This document shows, in pieces, positions 7,638-45,609 of a stretch of 64,000 nt of DNA. Each line of letters opens with the position of its first letter. The first letter of the stretch is position 1. Both the position numbers and the translations under genes were made by a program. Below the pieces are notes generated by a model, which was not told where the DNA came from, searched no databases, and was given only the letters and a program-made list of their open reading frames with translations. The stretch covers positions 1,922,001-1,986,000 of the forward strand of contig NZ_JBGKAC010000001.1 of NCBI RefSeq assembly GCF_041361465.1, written 5' to 3'. This DNA is from Halobaculum sp. MBLA0143. GTDB lineage: Archaea; Halobacteriota; Halobacteria; Halobacteriales; Haloferacaceae.

Positions 7638-9794
7638 CTACAGCAGTCGGTCGCGAGCCTCCTCCGTCCACAACACTCGGCCGCGGTAGAGGTACGGGCC
7701 ACTGTTGTCGTCGAGGAACGTCTCGAACGCGTCACGGTCCATCTCGTGGCGACGGCGCTGCCCGTTGAGCCGCGGCCCGTCGTCGGCGTCGATTCGGGCG
7801 TGGACGACCTGCGCGCCGGCGCAGCCGGGCGAGAAGTTCCGGGCCGTCACCGTGTACCGGTCGTCGTCGGGCCGCGTCACCTCGTAGCGCGACGGCAGGA
7901 TGTCGTCCGACTGGGAGACGACGTGTGTTCCGTCGCCGACCGCGAGGTAGTCGGGGTCGACCAACGCCTCGTGGCGTGCCGTCTGGGTCGCGCCGGCGAC
8001 GGAGAAGCCGGAGGCCAACAGCCTGGCGAACGTCGCCCCGACGCCGGCGGCCATCCCGTCCAACACGTCCCGGCAGGTGACCACGCCGGCGACGCTGCCA
8101 CGCTCCACGAGCGTGACGCCGTCCTCGTAGGAGTCGCAGGTGTTGAGGAAGAACGTCCGTGCGTTCGACTCTCGGAGCGTCGTCGGCGAGAAGACGCCGT
8201 CGGCACACGCGAGCCCGGTGGGCTCGCGGTGACCGACGAAGTGGAGGAGGTCCGTTCCGCGCTCGAGCGCCCGAGCGAGTTCTCCGACCGTCGGGTCGGT
8301 CAGCGTCGTCACGGCCAGCCCCAGGTCCTCGCTCCGACGGTCGTAGTGGCTCACTGCTCGTTCCAACTCCGCGTGTTCGTCGACACCACTGGAGACGGCC
8401 AACACGGACAGTGTCTCCGCTCCGTCGGCGTAGCGGTCGCGGTTGCGGAACCCCGCTGGCACGGCGTCGAACGCCGTGACGGGCTGGCCCGGGCCACTCC
8501 AGCCGTGGACGGTCCCACAGTCGTGTGCGGCCGCGATCCGACGCGAAGGGAGCGGGCGTGGCGGATCGCCGGCCCCGCCGGGCTCGTCGACACAGTGGCC
8601 GCCGTCCGTCCGTGGGCGCCGACACTCCCAGTCGCCGTCGACCACCTCCGCCGTCGAGAGGGTGCGGCCGCGGGGTGGCACCGGTGCCGGCAGCCTGTGG
8701 ACCGTCCGGGCGAGCACCTCCAGGCTCTCGTACCGTGGGGCGACGGACACGGAGAGGTGCCAGTCGGGCAGCTCCGTGACGAGCGGCGCGAGCGGCGCGT
8801 CCAGGTACCGCGCGACCCGTTGCGCGAGCGGGGCGTCGTACAGTCGCTCGGGGTCGATCCCGACGCGCGACAGCTTCGTCGCCGCCGACACCGGGGGGCC
8901 GTACGGACCGACCCCACGGACCAGGTGATCGCCGAAGAAGGCCGTTTCGAGCACCCGCGCCGCCCGGCTCGCGTAGCCGGTCGCGCCCCCGGGATGTGTC
9001 ACGTCGTCGTGAGTCGACACCGGTCCGGACGGGCCCAGCGACACCGACCGCCCGTCGAGGTCGAGCCGCGGCGTCGCGCCGTCGACCACCTCTACCGCCG
9101 CCCCGAGGTAGTACGCGAGCGTCGTGCTCGTCAAGACGGTCTGGAGGTCACGCGGGAGCGTGAGCGTAACGCCGGTGTCGTCGTCGAGCCGTTCCGTCAC
9201 CGACGGGGACACCGTCGTCTCCGAGCCGAAGGCGACGCGCGGCGCCGGATCCCTGACGCTGGGCCACGACCGATCCGGGGTCGTCAGCTCGGCGCCGGCT
9301 GCGAACGTCTCCACCGCCGCCGCCACCCCCTCGACCGTCCGCGGCACCGTCACCGTCCCGGTCGGCTCGTCGACGGACGGCTCGAACCCGACGGAGACGG
9401 GGGTCGGTTCTCCGAACTCGACGGTGACGTGCTCCAGCCCGGACCGAGAGACCCGGACGGGCCCGTCGACGCGGACGAACGTCCTGACGGGCGCCAGGAT
9501 CCGGACGAGGTACGACCCAGCCGGGAGCGACACCCGCTGTCCGGTCCAGTTGTGCACGTGGTACTCCCCACTCTCCAGGTCGGCTACCTCCACCTGCACG
9601 TCCGGCGCGACGAGCCCCCGGGTCTCGGCGGCGACGACCGCCGCCGGCTCGTCGGGGCCGTCCACCCGCTCGGCCAGCGTCTCCGCGACCGAGGGGGCCT
9701 CCGTCGTCGACTCCCAGCCGTCCGTCTCGAACTGGGTGACCGTGCCGTCGCTGTCGACGACCCGAAAGCCGGACATCGTCCGGGAGAACTCCAT
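7638..9794 (-). CDS. CHAT-domain caspase-like protease
   Basis: 718 residues. The C-terminal third is a caspase-fold CHAT domain: ELARALERGTDLLHFVGHREP supplies the catalytic His (residue 522) and ARTFFLNTCDSYEDG the catalytic Cys (residue 553), followed by GSVAGVVTCRDVLDG and a helix resembling GATFARLLASGFSVAGA. The first 430 residues are beta-rich and unrecognised. CHAT proteases act in separase-like, gasdermin-activating and type III-E CRISPR (TPR-CHAT) systems; similar large proteins occur in haloarchaea. An AT-rich TATA-like stretch (TTTATTATTC on the minus strand) lies about 36 bases before the ATG, giving a short leader. Target unknown; an immune role is inference. Confidence 0.85.
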   Translation of the reverse strand: MEFSRTMSGFRVVDSDGTVTQFETDGWESTTEAPSVAETLAERVDGPDEPAAVVAAETRGLVAPDVQVEVADLESGEYHVHNWTGQRVSLPAGSYLVRILAPVRTFVRVDGPVRVSRSGLEHVTVEFGEPTPVSVGFEPSVDEPTGTVTVPRTVEGVAAAVETFAAGAELTTPDRSWPSVRDPAPRVAFGSETTVSPSVTERLDDDTGVTLTLPRDLQTVLTSTTLAYYLGAAVEVVDGATPRLDLDGRSVSLGPSGPVSTHDDVTHPGGATGYASRAARVLETAFFGDHLVRGVGPYGPPVSAATKLSRVGIDPERLYDAPLAQRVARYLDAPLAPLVTELPDWHLSVSVAPRYESLEVLARTVHRLPAPVPPRGRTLSTAEVVDGDWECRRPRTDGGHCVDEPGGAGDPPRPLPSRRIAAAHDCGTVHGWSGPGQPVTAFDAVPAGFRNRDRYADGAETLSVLAVSSGVDEHAELERAVSHYDRRSEDLGLAVTTLTDPTVGELARALERGTDLLHFVGHREPTGLACADGVFSPTTLRESNARTFFLNTCDSYEDGVTLVERGSVAGVVTCRDVLDGMAAGVGATFARLLASGFSVAGATQTARHEALVDPDYLAVGDGTHVVSQSDDILPSRYEVTRPDDDRYTVTARNFSPGCAGAQVVHARIDADDGPRLNGQRRRHEMDRDAFETFLDDNSGPYLYRGRVLWTEEARDRLL

Positions 9795-36261: not shown

Positions 36262-36350
36262 TGGTAGACCTCCGTAGCTGCCGCCTGCGGCGGCGGTGCG
36301 CGCTACGAGCGCGACTGACTGCGAGAACGGAGTGTGAGGAGGGAGCACCC

Positions 36351-36491
36351 GTGGCTCTCCCGTTCGGTCGTGCCACAGAATGCAGGGAGCAGGATTCGAA
36401 CTTCGGTCGCTCGCTCCCTAGTTCGAATCCATCTGCATCGGCGGCTCTCCCGTTCGGTTGAGCCACAGAATGCAGGGAGCAGGATTCGAAC
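36351..36491. repeat. duplicated 3' end of tRNA-Leu with flank (two copies, 90 bp apart)
   Basis: 36353-36401 and 36443-36491 match at all but two or three positions: ggctctcccgttcggt, ccacagaatgcagggagc and aggattcgaac. The right copy contains the true T-arm and acceptor 3' strand of tRNA-Leu; the left copy ends inside the T-loop. A second TTCGAATCC lies between them in the opposite sense. tRNA 3'-end duplications are a known mark of integration at tRNA genes, but no integrase gene lies nearby. Confidence 0.85.
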
Positions 36492-36555
36492 CTGCGGATC
36501 CCTATGGAACAGCGCCCTGAACGCTGCGCCGTTGACCAGACTTGGCTATCCCTGC
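36471..36555 (-). tRNA. tRNA-Leu (CAG)
   Basis: Read on the minus strand: acceptor GCAGGGA pairs with TCCCTGC, discriminator A; anticodon stem CAGCG/CGCTG encloses loop TTCAGGG, anticodon CAG; a long variable arm follows, then T-arm GCAGGTTCGAATCCTGC. It sits inside the ribosomal/RNA polymerase operon between rpoD and rpl18e. Confidence 0.95.
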
Positions 36556-40694: not shown

Positions 40695-41009
40695 ACTGGA
40701 TAGTGCCGGCTTCGCGTGTTAATTGTTTCTTCCCATCGTTCTGCCGACAATTTGGATGTACCTACGCTACTAACAGTCGAGCTAATTTCGAAGTCGTCCG
40801 AATCTGCCATCGCGGCGCCACTCGTCTCAGATCTCCACGCCGACAGCCTCGTAGTCCGTCCCCAGGACCACCATCGTCTGTGAGCGGTCGAACCCCTCCG
40901 TGTCGGCGATTTCTCTTTCCCCAACGAGAGTACCTTCACGAGAGTTACACTGTGAGCTTCCAGTGGGCTCCTTAACAGTGAAAAGGTGAGTGACGGCTGC
41001 CTGGACAGC
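40695..41009. other. 315-bp intergenic stretch holding the left boundary repeat of the cassette
   Basis: Contains the histidine kinase promoter at its left end, then the partial lrp copy (40827-40910), then about 100 bases of cassette sequence downstream of the cysteine-rich precursor gene. No further gene is apparent. Confidence 0.7.
40827..40910 (-). pseudogene. duplicated last 28 codons of the Lrp/AsnC gene (left direct repeat)
   Basis: 84 bases identical to 43561-43644 except one third-position difference (G at 40866, C at 43600) that is synonymous. It equals the C-terminal 27 codons and stop of the Lrp/AsnC gene without any 5' part, so it cannot encode a protein. Together with the intact gene it brackets the peptide/ABC cassette. 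Confidence 0.95.
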
Positions 41010-41642
41010 TTAGAGCTTACAGGTGCAGTCGGATGTCGAGACGCAGTCGCCGTTTTCAATCGACGAGCAGATCGTGACGTACTTGTCCCACCAACAGCTG
41101 TTGTTGCTGTAACAGTCGCAACCGTCACAGTCTGCGATCTGATCGGTCGAGACATCGTCGTCTTTCGACGAACCGAACGGACGTGTCTCATAACTACCGT
41201 CGCTGTCGGGTAGGTAGATTTGGGACTCAGCGGACTCGGGACGGTGGATCGCGTACGGCTCCATCGCGGCGCCGCCGAGGTTGACCTCCAGCTTCCCATC
41301 GTCCACCCGAGTGACGAAGGCGCGCTGTGGGCCACTCTCGGACTCCACGATTGTCGTGCCGGCCGTCGACGACACCGTTAGTTCCGCGTCCGGCAGAGCA
41401 CTGGCATCTGCCGTTTCCAGCAGGTCGTCGCCCGAAAGCCGGTCGAGAAGCGGCTGTGCAGTCCGTTCGAGCCGGCGTTTGTCTTCTGCCACTGTCGGCT
41501 CGCTCGTTGCGCTCACGCTACCGATACCAGCAAGACCGAGCGTAGCGAGTGCCCCGCCGACGAATCCGCGCCGTGCGGTTGACGGAGAGCTGTCGGCTGT
41601 CTCTGCGACTTGTTCGAGGATGTCTTCCTTCTTCAGGGACAT
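41010..41642 (-). CDS. Tat-exported cysteine-rich peptide precursor (halocin-C8-like layout)
   Basis: 210 residues from ATG 41642 (an upstream ATG at 41711 is less likely because a CTTATC TATA-like box lies 30 bases before 41642). Twin-arginine signal STARRGFVGGALATLGLAG with a likely cleavage after GSVSA (residue 45). Residues 46-165 are a soluble acidic region. The last 40 residues hold eight cysteines (172, 175, 177, 183, 192, 200, 206, 208) and a WW pair: CDGCDCYSNNSCWW and CTCKL at the end. Halocin C8 precursors share this plan: Tat signal, immunity/pro region, C-terminal Cys-rich peptide. Sequence homology to any halocin is not established. Divergent from an ABC transporter inside the repeat-flanked cassette. 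Confidence 0.75.
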   Translation of the reverse strand: MSLKKEDILEQVAETADSSPSTARRGFVGGALATLGLAGIGSVSATSEPTVAEDKRRLERTAQPLLDRLSGDDLLETADASALPDAELTVSSTAGTTIVESESGPQRAFVTRVDDGKLEVNLGGAAMEPYAIHRPESAESQIYLPDSDGSYETRPFGSSKDDDVSTDQIADCDGCDCYSNNSCWWDKYVTICSSIENGDCVSTSDCTCKL

Positions 41643-41761
41643 CGATTCACGAGTTGCCGCGGCCTTTGATAAGAGTTTTGATTTAGAATTAGTTATTTTT
41701 CTGGAATTCATATCCAGCTGTCACTGAGAACCCCACAATGATGCATGCACCAAAGGGAAGG

Positions 41762-41768
41762 TTTATAT
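41762..41768 (+). promoter_or_regulatory. TATA-like box of the cassette ABC transporter
   Basis: tttatat centred 26 bases before the GTG at 41791, consistent with a leaderless transcript. It lies in the divergent region shared with the cysteine-rich precursor gene, so both could respond to the same regulator. Confidence 0.65.
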
Positions 41769-41790
41769 CACCGAGGGTTGGGTTGAGAGT

Positions 41791-42750
41791 GTGAAAGAGA
41801 CAGCGATCCGTATGACCGAAGTGTCGAAGCGGTACGGTGAGGTCACCGCTGTCGACGGTGTCTCCTTCTCTGTCTCGGTCGGTGAGGCCTTCGGGTTGCT
41901 CGGGCCGAACGGCGCCGGAAAGTCCACGACGCTAGACGTTCTGATCGGGTTCGCCGAGCCGACGGACGGTGACGTGGTCGTCGCCGGGCACGATGTGACG
42001 GAGTCACCAGCCGAGGCGAGAGGTGAAATGGGTATCGTTCCAGAGGACTGTGGCGTCTACGATCGACTGACTGCCGAGGAACACGTTCGGCTGGCTGCAC
42101 GGGCGAAAGACGTAGCAGTCGATCCGGGTCGGTTGCTCCGACTGGTCGGCCTGGACCAGATCGCTTGGTCGCGGCCTGCCGGAGAGTACTCGAAAGGCAT
42201 GGCACAGCGACTCAGGCTAGCGGTCGCACTCGTCGGAGATCCGGCAGTGCTCGTGCTCGACGAACCGCTTTCTGGGCTTGATCCGAGCGGCGTTTCGGAG
42301 ATCACGTCGCTAGTGAGCGATCTCAGAGACGACGGGACCGCCGTCGTCTTCTCCAGTCACAATCTTCCGTACGTGGAGGAGGTGTGCGACCGCGTCGGTA
42401 TCCTGAACAGTAGTGAGTTCGTCGGGGTCGAAGATCTCTCTGCCCGCAGACAGCAGCCGGAGGAACTGGCCGTGTCGACGAGCGGAGCGGTCGACGAGGC
42501 GGTGGCCGCAGTCGAGTCGGTCAGCGAGGTCACCTCGACAGTCGTGAGAGACGACGAAGTTCGAATCACCGTCACCGATCCCGCGGCGAAGGCCGAAGCG
42601 ATTGCCAGAGCCCAGTCACAGGCTCAGGTGAACGACGTTCGAACGGGAACCTCCTCCGTTGAAGACGTGTTCTCACTGTACACTGAACAACAGAGAGAGG
42701 AGTCGAACACCGGTGACAGGACTGATAGAGAGGAGGTGACCGCAGTTTGA
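41791..42750 (+). CDS. ABC transporter ATPase of the cysteine-rich-peptide cassette
   Basis: 319 residues, ABC-2/CcmA-like. Walker A GPNGAGKST, Q-loop VPEDCGVYDRLTAEE, variant signature YSKGMAQRL, Walker B VLVLDEPLSGLDPSG, H-loop VVFSSHNLPYVEEV, then a C-terminal domain of about 100 residues typical of drug or bacteriocin exporters. Leaderless GTG start at 41791. Stop overlaps the permease start by four bases. Given the divergent precursor gene, likely roles are export of, or self-protection against, the peptide (inference). Confidence 0.9.
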   Translation: MKETAIRMTEVSKRYGEVTAVDGVSFSVSVGEAFGLLGPNGAGKSTTLDVLIGFAEPTDGDVVVAGHDVTESPAEARGEMGIVPEDCGVYDRLTAEEHVRLAARAKDVAVDPGRLLRLVGLDQIAWSRPAGEYSKGMAQRLRLAVALVGDPAVLVLDEPLSGLDPSGVSEITSLVSDLRDDGTAVVFSSHNLPYVEEVCDRVGILNSSEFVGVEDLSARRQQPEELAVSTSGAVDEAVAAVESVSEVTSTVVRDDEVRITVTDPAAKAEAIARAQSQAQVNDVRTGTSSVEDVFSLYTEQQREESNTGDRTDREEVTAV

Positions 42751-43541
42751 GCACCGAGGTTGTCGCAGGCCACGACATCCGGCGCACTCTCCGTTCTCGG
42801 GTCTTCGTCGGTCTCGTCGGTGCGTCGATCGTCGTGTGCGTCGCTGGGCTACTCGTGGGACAGTTAGTCGGTACCGGACGGGACCCGGTCTCTGCACTAC
42901 GGGTGCAGTTGCTCGGGATGTGGATGGTCGCCGGGACAGTCGTCGGGTTCATCGGAGTGTCAGTCGGCGCGTCCGGGATCGCGGGAGAGCGACAGAACAG
43001 AACGCTCAGGCTCCTTGCGAGTCTCCCAATTCGTCGGTCGGAGCTGCTGTACGGGAAGGTGCTGTCACGGGTCACCGTAGTAGTCGTCAGCGTCTGTGCC
43101 GGGCTCGTTGTCTCACTGTCTGCACTCGTGGTCGGGACGCCAGTGCCTGCGATGGGTCAAGTCACTGGGTTCGCCGTCTTCACTGTCGCAGTTGCGGTGT
43201 GTTACGTCACCGTCGGTGTCGCCGTGTCCACACTCGTTACTGCCAGTCGCGTTCGGGCGGTCGCCGTCGTGGTGTTCACCGTGACCGTCGTCTGGCCGCG
43301 CGCCTTCAGTTTCGGCGTGGAGATATTCGGCAGTGGCCCCATCAGTTCGGCGCTGAAGTTTCTCGCAACGCTGACTCCGTTCGGAGCGTACAGCCAAGTC
43401 GTGAGCGACGAGGCAGCGATCCTCGCGTTCGAGGTTGACTCTGCCCTGTTGGGTTCGGGCACGATGGCGGCCGTACTGTTCGCTTGGACGGTACTGTCTC
43501 TCGTCGTCGCACGTCGTGGGATCGAGCGCCGCGACATCTGA
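42747..43541 (+). CDS. ABC-2 type permease of the cysteine-rich-peptide cassette
   Basis: 264 residues, six hydrophobic segments (VFVGLVGASIVVCVAGLLVG, MVAGTVVGFIGVSVGASGIA, VVVVSVCAGLVVSLSALVVG, FAVFTVAVAVCYVTVGVAVS, AVAVVVFTVTVVWP, MAAVLFAWTVLSLVVA) with ERQNRTLRLLASLPIRRSELLYGK, the ABC-2 cytoplasmic motif. Ends 19 bases before the right direct repeat, so it is the last gene of the cassette. Codon use is less GC-extreme than in surrounding housekeeping genes. Confidence 0.88.
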   Translation: MSTEVVAGHDIRRTLRSRVFVGLVGASIVVCVAGLLVGQLVGTGRDPVSALRVQLLGMWMVAGTVVGFIGVSVGASGIAGERQNRTLRLLASLPIRRSELLYGKVLSRVTVVVVSVCAGLVVSLSALVVGTPVPAMGQVTGFAVFTVAVAVCYVTVGVAVSTLVTASRVRAVAVVVFTVTVVWPRAFSFGVEIFGSGPISSALKFLATLTPFGAYSQVVSDEAAILAFEVDSALLGSGTMAAVLFAWTVLSLVVARRGIERRDI

Positions 43542-43560
43542 CTCTCTGGCGTCGCTCGCG

Positions 43561-43644
43561 TCAGATCTCCACGCCGACAGCCTCGTAGTCCGTCCCCAGC
43601 ACCACCATCGTCTGTGAGCGGTCGAACCCCTCCGTGTCGGCGAT
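43561..43644. repeat. right 84-bp direct repeat (3' end of the lrp gene)
   Basis: Matches 40827-40910 at 83 of 84 positions in the same orientation, at a distance of 2734 bp. Similarity stops abruptly at both ends. It marks the right edge of the peptide/ABC cassette. Confidence 0.95.
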
Positions 43645-44028
43645 CTCCTCGAACATCAGGTCTCGGAGGCCGTCGGTGTTCTCCGCGAACACTCGCATCA
43701 CCACGTCCCACTCCCCGGTGGTGAGGTGGATCTCCCGGACGCCGTCGACGTCCCGCAGCCGGGACAGCGACTCGTCCTCGTGGCCCTGCTCCACCCGGAG
43801 CCCGACGAGTGCCGACACGCCGTAGCCGACGGCGCTCGGGTCCACGTCCGCGTGGTAGCCCTGGATCACGCCCGCCTCCTCCAGCCGCGAGACGCGCTCG
43901 TGGACGGTCGCGCTCGACATGTCGATCTCGCGGGCGATCTCCGAGAACGGGGTCCGGGCGTCCGCCTGGAGCAGTCGCAGGATCTCCCGGTCCGTCTCGT
44001 CGATCTCGACTCCCGTCTCCGTGTCCAT
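43561..44028 (-). CDS. Lrp/AsnC family transcriptional regulator
   Basis: 155 residues. N-terminal helix-turn-helix IDETDREILRLLQADARTPFSEIAREIDMSSATVHERVSRLEEAGVI and a C-terminal RAM ligand-binding domain (GVSALVGLRVEQG, REIHLTTGEWDVVMRVFAENTDGLRDLM). Such proteins sense amino acids and form octamers. Its last 84 bases form the right direct repeat of the cassette; the gene itself is intact. No neighbouring operon reveals its target. Confidence 0.95.
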   Translation of the reverse strand: MDTETGVEIDETDREILRLLQADARTPFSEIAREIDMSSATVHERVSRLEEAGVIQGYHADVDPSAVGYGVSALVGLRVEQGHEDESLSRLRDVDGVREIHLTTGEWDVVMRVFAENTDGLRDLMFEEIADTEGFDRSQTMVVLGTDYEAVGVEI

Positions 44029-44130: not shown

Positions 44131-44952
44131 TCACGTCAGTTTGTCCAACGCTCGGAAGAAGTCCGTCGGGGGGCCGGCGATCCGCACCGGCGGGTCCGCC
44201 ACCGCCACCGTCACCGCCGTCGGCGGGTTCAGTCGGTGTTCGTCGCCGCCGTCGGAGACGACCACCGGTGTCTCGTCCGTCGCCGACACCTCCACCGTGA
44301 CGGTCGCGTCTGCGCCGACCGCCAACGGCGGCATCCCGTCCGTCGGCGCCATCTCGTTGACGACCAACGCGTCCACGCCCGGGTGGACCAACGGCCCCCG
44401 CTCGGAGAGGTTGTACGCCGTGCTCCCGGTCGGCGTCGCCACGAGCACGCCGTCCGCGTGGCCGGCCGTGTAGACGGAGTCGTCCACCCTGACGGTCACG
44501 TCCACGCCGCCGCCGTGGCCCCGACGGCCGCCGACGACGATCTCGTTGACCGCCGGCCGGCTCTCCCAGCTGTCCGTCGAGGCGACGATCCGTGGCGCCT
44601 CTCGCACGGTGATCCCGTCGTCGCGGAACGCCGACACCTCCGCGAGCACGGCCGCCTCCGCGTCGGCGGGCGCGACGGCGTTGAGGAAGCCCACCTCGCC
44701 GAGGTTCACCCCCAACACCGGCGTCCCGCCGGCGCCGTGGGCGGCGTACAGGAACGTGCCGTCGCCGCCGACGGAGACGACCAGATCCGCCGCCTCGAAC
44801 GCCGAGACGGGCTCGCCGGACAGTCCCAGGGTCTCGGCCGTCGCTGGATCGACCGACACTCGAACCGTCTCCGCGCGCAGACGCTCCCGGAGCGACGACG
44901 CCAGCGACGCCGCCCGGTCGTTGCCCCGCTGTGCGACGATCCCGACGTACAT
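44131..44952 (-). CDS. nadK: NAD kinase
   Basis: Phosphorylates NAD to NADP. 273 residues from ATG 44952 (a CTTTTCC box 30 bases upstream supports it; the open frame beyond is the repeat region). Signature [14 protein letters not shown], then [49 protein letters not shown] and a C-terminal beta domain. Haloarchaeal enzymes of this length are typical. Confidence 0.96.
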
Positions 44953-45010
44953 GCCCGCCGATTCGACTGGCCCCGGGAAAAGCCCGCGGGTGTCGTTGTC
45001 CGCGACCGGA

Positions 45011-45080
45011 GCCTCGAATCCGACCGCGACCGAAGCCTCGAATCCGACCGCGACCGAAGCCTCAAATCCGACCGCGACGG
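45011..45080. repeat. three tandem 24-bp units in the NAD kinase / zinc-ribbon intergenic region
   Basis: gcctcgaatccgaccgcgac plus cgaa occurs twice exactly and a third time with one substitution and a truncated end. The 138-bp region lies between divergent genes; repeats end about 10 bases before the ATG at 45091, so they would overlap the plus-strand gene's promoter or 5' leader. Confidence 0.9.
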
Positions 45081-45090
45081 ACGGGCCAGT

Positions 45091-45609
45091 ATGTACGCGG
45101 TCGTCGGCTGTACGGACTGTGGCGGCTACTGGCTGTTGTCCGACCCGGACGATCAGGACTCCGCACAGTGTCCCACCTGTGGGCGCACCCACCAGATCCA
45201 GAAGCTCAAACGGTTCCACACGAGTCCCGACCGCGACTCGGCCGTCGAGGCCCGGTCGCGGCTGCTCGCCCGAAAGCGTGGCGACGAGGCGGCGTTCGAC
45301 CGGGTCGACGACGCCGGCGAACTGGAGCGGGCCGTCGAGGAGGGCACCGGCGTCGACGAACGAGAGTACCTCGACCGGTCCGGGCTCGACGCCGACACCG
45401 TGAGCGAGGCCGGCGACGTGTCCGGCGGCAGTTCTCGCTCGCGCGAGGAGATCCTCCGGGACGCGGTCGCCGAACACGACGATCGGGAGGCCGCCGTCGC
45501 GGAGGCCGTCGCCGACGGCGTCCCGGAGTCCGCCGCCACGGACCTGTTAGACCGACTCGTCCGTCGCGGCGAGGCGACCGACGCCGGCGGCGACCTCCGG
45601 CTGTTGTAG
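45091..45609 (+). CDS. zinc-ribbon protein (DUF5817-like)
   Basis: 172 residues from ATG 45091. N-terminal zinc ribbon [15 protein letters not shown]...[10 protein letters not shown] with two CxxC pairs, a basic QIQKLKRFH, then acidic helices and a C-terminal winged-helix-like element ([27 protein letters not shown]). I recall this N-terminus as haloarchaeal DUF5817. The combination suggests nucleic-acid binding; the role is unknown. Confidence 0.82.

Follow-up and report, generated by a model that had tools for sequence, protein, structure and literature searches.

The window, which is the whole 64,000-nt stretch of Halobaculum sp. MBLA0143 DNA analysed, contains a cassette bounded by two direct repeats. 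A gene for a 210-aa precursor with a cysteine-rich tail diverges there from an ABC ATPase/permease pair, and the cassette was confirmed as real (Table 1). The sequence-only reading had described a precursor with an eight-cysteine C-terminal segment, a divergent ABC pair with a leaderless promoter, and nothing else between the flanking repeats, and all of these points were borne out. The precursor ORF ends with a 39-aa tail containing eight cysteines, the ATPase and permease match PF00005 and PF12679 above the cut-offs, and only three genes are present between the repeats, with no further gene, no modification enzyme, and no integrase there. A TATA-like box some 26 nt upstream of the ATPase GTG is consistent with a leaderless transcript of the ABC operon. 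The G+C content of the cassette is 60.7%, compared with 68.7% for the whole window; of 559 comparable stretches from the rest of the window, 24 are as low.

Table 1. Features of the cassette and its boundaries (positions in the window)
Feature	Position	Strand	Basis
Orphan duplicate of the lrp 3' end, left boundary	40814..40913	-	94% identity over 100 bp to 43548-43647
Pre-pro-peptide gene, 210 aa	41010..41642	-	ORF and relatives across the class
Tat-type signal, residues 1-45	41508..41642	-	RRGF and hydrophobic stretch; RR kept in relatives
Folded pro-domain, residues 49-157	41172..41498	-	AlphaFold2 and hhalign homology to the wider set
Putative mature disulfide-rich peptide, residues 167-210, 8 Cys	41013..41144	-	Cys framework kept in the subfamily
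TATA-like box TTTATATC of the ABC operon	41762..41769	+	About 26 nt upstream of the ATPase GTG
ABC ATPase, DrrA-like, 319 aa	41791..42750	+	PF00005; TIGR01188 210 bits, cut-off 312
ABC-2 type permease, 264 aa	42747..43541	+	PF12679 100.6 bits; overlaps the ATPase stop
lrp 3' end of the intact gene, right boundary	43548..43647	-	Repeat comparison
Lrp/AsnC-family regulator gene (lrp) adjoining the cassette	43561..44028	-	PF13404, PF01037

The N-terminus of the precursor includes STARRGFVGGALATLGLAGIGSVSA, with RR and a hydrophobic stretch, and its C-terminus is CDGCDCYSNNSCWWDKYVTICSSIENGDCVSTSDCTCKL, with eight cysteines in a stretch of 39 residues. The Tat model TIGR01409 scored 12.6 on the precursor, under its cut-off of 16.7, so the Tat assignment is based on the layout of RR and hydrophobic stretch and on its conservation in relatives; the precursor is probably exported via Tat. 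In the AlphaFold2 model, residues 49–157 were predicted confidently (pLDDT mostly 80–97, and 83–97 with the family alignment A2 described below) as two helices followed by six strands; the signal was disordered and the tail had low confidence. This part is predicted to fold on its own; the earlier suggestion had been that the middle region (46–165) may act as immunity or pro-domain. The best matches to the pro-domain in structure searches had E values of 0.1 and 0.36 and were not significant, and no sequence relative was found in PDB, so the fold gives no function for it. A junction motif, [VIL][ST]T[QNDEA], is present at most 25 residues before the first tail cysteine in 4 of 13 close relatives and in 12 of 30 halocin C8-like precursors, compared with 3–5% elsewhere in the same proteins; it was picked post hoc, after the sequences had been viewed, and is taken as a lead only. 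The motif suggests a putative cut after V164-S165-T166.

No Pfam model matches the precursor (P0001), no NCBIfam model does so above its cut-off, and single-sequence scans of genome contigs, viral contigs, and plasmids were empty. Relatives came to light in whole-genome searches in the class. True distant relatives were found in nine other genomes in the class-wide search, with E from 2e-14 to 3e-8, all with the pro-region and the cysteine-rich tail, and with the signal wherever the N-terminus is intact. The first profile (A1), in which the signal was included, drew many false Tat matches, and a signal-free profile (A2) was built for this reason. A2 detects relatives in 28 of the 294 haloarchaeal genomes searched, spread over 16 of 78 genera, with up to five per genome. 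The window's own genome has exactly three family members; in that search the window precursor, whose sequence is itself included in A2, had E 6.9e-39. The pro-domains of the close set and the wider set are homologous according to hhalign (98%, E 2e-14), and all 20 extra loci retrieved after A2 was made have a cysteine-rich tail at the end. When 21 members of A2 were scanned, there was one weak match to a Pfam DUF (E 9e-4) and none to NCBIfam, and no homologue with a known unrelated function was found among the relatives scanned. The precursor is not an orphan, but a member of a large superfamily undescribed in Pfam and NCBIfam. No description of it was found in the literature searched, which lay mostly outside subscription journals.

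The tails contain 4–22 cysteines, in an even number for 51 of the 52 non-redundant members (binomial p 1e-14) and still for 37 of 38 after clustering at 45% similarity; among control ORFs with 4–22 cysteines taken from these loci, 186 of 306 (61%) have an even number. The sole odd tail, that of L175 with seven cysteines, has an extra cysteine ahead of the part that resembles the six-cysteine relative L300. There are 50 distinct cysteine spacings among the 52 non-redundant tails, and the framework of the window tail is kept within its subfamily. Most tails are net negative, and the pro-domain is free of cysteines in 50 of the 52 members. Strict even pairing with free spacing argues for fully disulfide-bonded tails and disfavours metal ligation. 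The earlier claim of a secreted, processed, cysteine-rich peptide is supported by both the independently folding pro-domain and the even tail cysteines, and the window product is very probably a secreted disulfide-rich pro-peptide. Among other members, L176 and L178 (G282, G290) have 20–22 cysteines in about 50–57 residues, an extremely high density for a peptide secreted by an archaeon.

To our knowledge, very few halocins are known at the sequence level. Halocin C8 (TIGR04449; halC8/ProC8) is exported via Tat as a 283-aa precursor, whose cleavage yields HalI and a 76-aa peptide (PMC11509114). The window precursor resembles it in being a single-gene, putatively Tat-exported precursor with a long pro-region and a C-terminal cysteine-rich peptide, and the junction motif V-S/T-T-Q/N/D is present in a minority of both sets. 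The window peptide differs in having eight cysteines in about 40 aa. Furthermore, the window precursor has no match to the TIGR04449 halocin C8-like domain, which does match at L040:12253-13008 and G000:C1:330049. No homology was detected by hhalign between its pro-region and the halocin C8-like pro-regions (probability 0.5%), which were rejected as homologues, and the tail is likewise not homologous in profile-profile comparison. The halocin C8-like layout noted from the sequence alone held; the window precursor may work like the halocin C8 precursor, but it does not belong to the halocin C8 family according to these comparisons. A halocin C8-like gene, L087 (G000:C1:330049-330258; E 1.5e-11), is likewise present in the window genome.

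HmHapP (HFX_0892) and HalH4 of Haloferax mediterranei are also secreted antagonistic precursors of haloarchaea activated by extracellular proteolysis, but the active part of HmHapP is a helical fragment from its N-terminus (PMC12893001); it is set apart here by this description, not by sequence. Haloarchaeal lanthipeptides (class II, LanM) are ribosomal anti-haloarchaeal peptides (PMC12144867). Unlike these, the window cassette has no modification enzyme, and the even cysteines point to disulfides rather than thioethers.

The ABC pair has the composition of an ABC-2 transporter, with the PF00005 ATPase (97 bits, cut-off 25) and the PF12679 permease (cut-off 27.2) both over the gathering scores. 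DrrA and lantibiotic-protection ABC systems (TIGR01188 and TIGR03740) similarly pair an ATPase with an ABC-2 permease next to the gene for a peptide or antibiotic and serve for self-protection, but the window ATPase is far under both subfamily cut-offs, with 210.1 bits against 312.45 and 156.9 bits against 309.75, respectively. Only ABC ATPase domains were recognized on it, with no peptidase or processing domain. A close homologue of the ATPase lies within 14 kb in 10 of 15 loci of the P0001 family; all ten have strong similarity to P0001 and are the window and L034–L042, i.e., the close subfamily. Such a homologue is present in one of 18 wider-family loci and in none of the 34 halocin C8-like loci, which is a further difference from halocin C8, and 2 of 20 random 14-kb stretches carry one as background. 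Among held-out loci, 1 of 20 has this ABC pair (L290), and most family members outside the close subfamily stand alone without it. In close relatives L035, L037, and L041, the ABC genes are 1.2–2.5 kb distant. In locus L040, a single 7-kb stretch (L040:6590-13008) contains a family member, an ABC pair, and a halocin C8-like precursor matching TIGR04449, and the ABC pair is nearer to the halocin C8-like gene than to the family member.

Each of the three family members in the window genome directly adjoins an ABC ATPase. The members at C1:1677638 and C1:415820 are in precursor-ATPase-permease operons, the permease at C1:415820 being identified solely from its membrane-helix pattern, whereas the window locus is divergent. 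Of 47 homologues, the three peptide-linked ATPases all belong to the five closest. A tree built from 34 ATPases placed every peptide-linked one in a single group of 19 rows (support 93/95), together with ATPases without a nearby peptide (L240, L241, L243, L111, and L118); according to the starred branches, the peptide linkage must have been gained or lost at least three times within the group.

The repeats flanking the cassette are not an independent repeat family but the duplicated 3' end of the lrp gene, which is intact only at the right-hand copy. The left repeat also shows 96% identity, along 82 bp, with the 3' end of lrp in the same-genus genome G160. Two other genomes of the genus, G161 and G162, have an empty site with a single lrp 3' end and no cassette, and in G161 the sensor-kinase gene lies close to lrp. 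The empty sites show that the cassette was added here, with the left repeat remaining as an extra copy of the end of lrp. In G160, the ABC pair is present at the same site, with 58% and 60% protein identity, but with neither the precursor nor a second lrp end in an assembly that is only 74% complete; just about 210 bp separate the ATPase ORF from the kinase ORF. The G160 locus resembles a non-producer that has retained immunity, but independent acquisition or loss of the peptide is an equally possible origin. The peptide gene is patchy and a sister genome has the transporter alone, as opposed to a gene conserved in all related genomes without the transporter. At another locus, perfect 108-bp direct repeats (L173:6468-6575 and 9347-9454) flank a peptide gene and represent the 3' end of the neighbouring gene, as in the lrp duplication. 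A closely comparable repeat was found in L173 only, which does not support repeat-flanked cassettes as a general rule.

The cassette probably represents a halocin-like secreted antimicrobial peptide with its ABC immunity. The precursor with its Tat-type signal would be exported folded, and the pro-domain (residues 49–157) probably keeps the tail inactive or aids formation of its disulfides. An extracellular protease would cut near the V-S-T/D junction (164–167) and free an acidic peptide of roughly 39–44 residues with four disulfides, which would attack competing haloarchaea. The ABC ATPase/permease pair may expel the mature peptide from the producer membrane, thus giving immunity and not export of the precursor. 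The unit would have been added next to lrp, duplicating the last ~90–100 bp of this gene.

It is unlikely that the product is a disulfide-rich secreted peptide without killing activity, such as a protease inhibitor, a signal, or an adhesion factor, with the ABC pair acting in sensing, uptake, or unrelated efflux. The acidic and extremely varied tails would also suit inhibitors or signals, and many members stand alone without an immunity-like gene. The repeated pairing with one DrrA-like ABC group, the transporter-only locus of G160 as expected of orphan immunity, the patchy distribution, and the insertion beside lrp nevertheless argue for the antimicrobial reading. If the peptide is antimicrobial, it is quite improbable that the ABC pair is its exporter instead of an immunity pump. 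Adjacency and the co-directional operons in L160 and L242 would be in line with export, but halocin C8 goes out via Tat (PMC11509114) and G160 keeps the ABC pair without a peptide. More probably the pair serves in immunity, since the precursor bears its own Tat-type signal and the ATPase has no processing domain. The toxin-plus-exporter/immunity unit of the sequence-only reading is thereby narrowed: the ABC partner is real, and immunity is the likelier of its two roles.

A metal-binding surface protein, in which the CxxC/CxC tail would ligate zinc, iron, or copper, is highly improbable. The CxxCxC spacing is similar to metal sites and Tat often carries metalloproteins, but an even cysteine number across so many spacings is a disulfide signature not needed for metal sites, there is no match to a metal-binding family in Pfam and NCBIfam, and metal binding by the tail was rejected on cysteine parity. 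Chance neighbourhood, i.e., an unrelated ABC efflux pair and a cysteine-rich protein joined merely by a shared insertion, is just as hard to credit: the ABC pair is alone at the same site in G160 and related ATPases exist without peptides, but every family member of the window genome abuts an ATPase of one small group, and the pair is present at all ten close-subfamily loci against 2 of 20 random stretches.

Conotoxin-type precursors have a conserved signal and pro-region and a highly variable disulfide-rich mature peptide; they are eukaryotic and unrelated, and the analogy is of design only. By this analogy, and with belief and doubt about equally weighted, the superfamily might be a conotoxin-like arsenal of haloarchaea, separate from lanthipeptides and from halocins C8 and H4, in which a conserved Tat signal and pro-domain (possibly a new fold) carry interchangeable disulfide peptides of 4–22 paired cysteines in small accessory cassettes, some with ABC immunity. 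If the peptides are active, sequenced genomes would offer dozens of new disulfide-stabilised, salt-tolerant candidates, archaea would use the design of fixed leader and variable peptide known from venoms, and the cassette would be a testable case in which an archaeal peptide antibiotic has an ABC pump dedicated to immunity. The rule of even cysteines is a simple means to spot further members.

A membrane protein with PEYTGxNRCxPCTxxN and C-terminal CPxC/ESCC/CxxC was observed near several peptides and some halocin C8-like genes (L038:7414-8226, L040:5606-6487, L045:7454-8242, L161, L166, L179, L297, L085, L097, and L098), and it could be a thiol oxidoreductase. As a partner shared with halocin C8 it was rejected, as its counts (4/15, 2/18, and 3/34 loci against 1/20 random) are not clearly above background. 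Elsewhere in the window, a 57-bp direct repeat (91%) at 36345-36401 and 36435-36491 overlaps one end of a tRNA-Leu gene (36471-36555) and may be the trace of an old integration. At 45000-45081 there are three tandem units of 24 bp, nearly identical to one another, near the start of a NAD-kinase-like gene (44131-45477).
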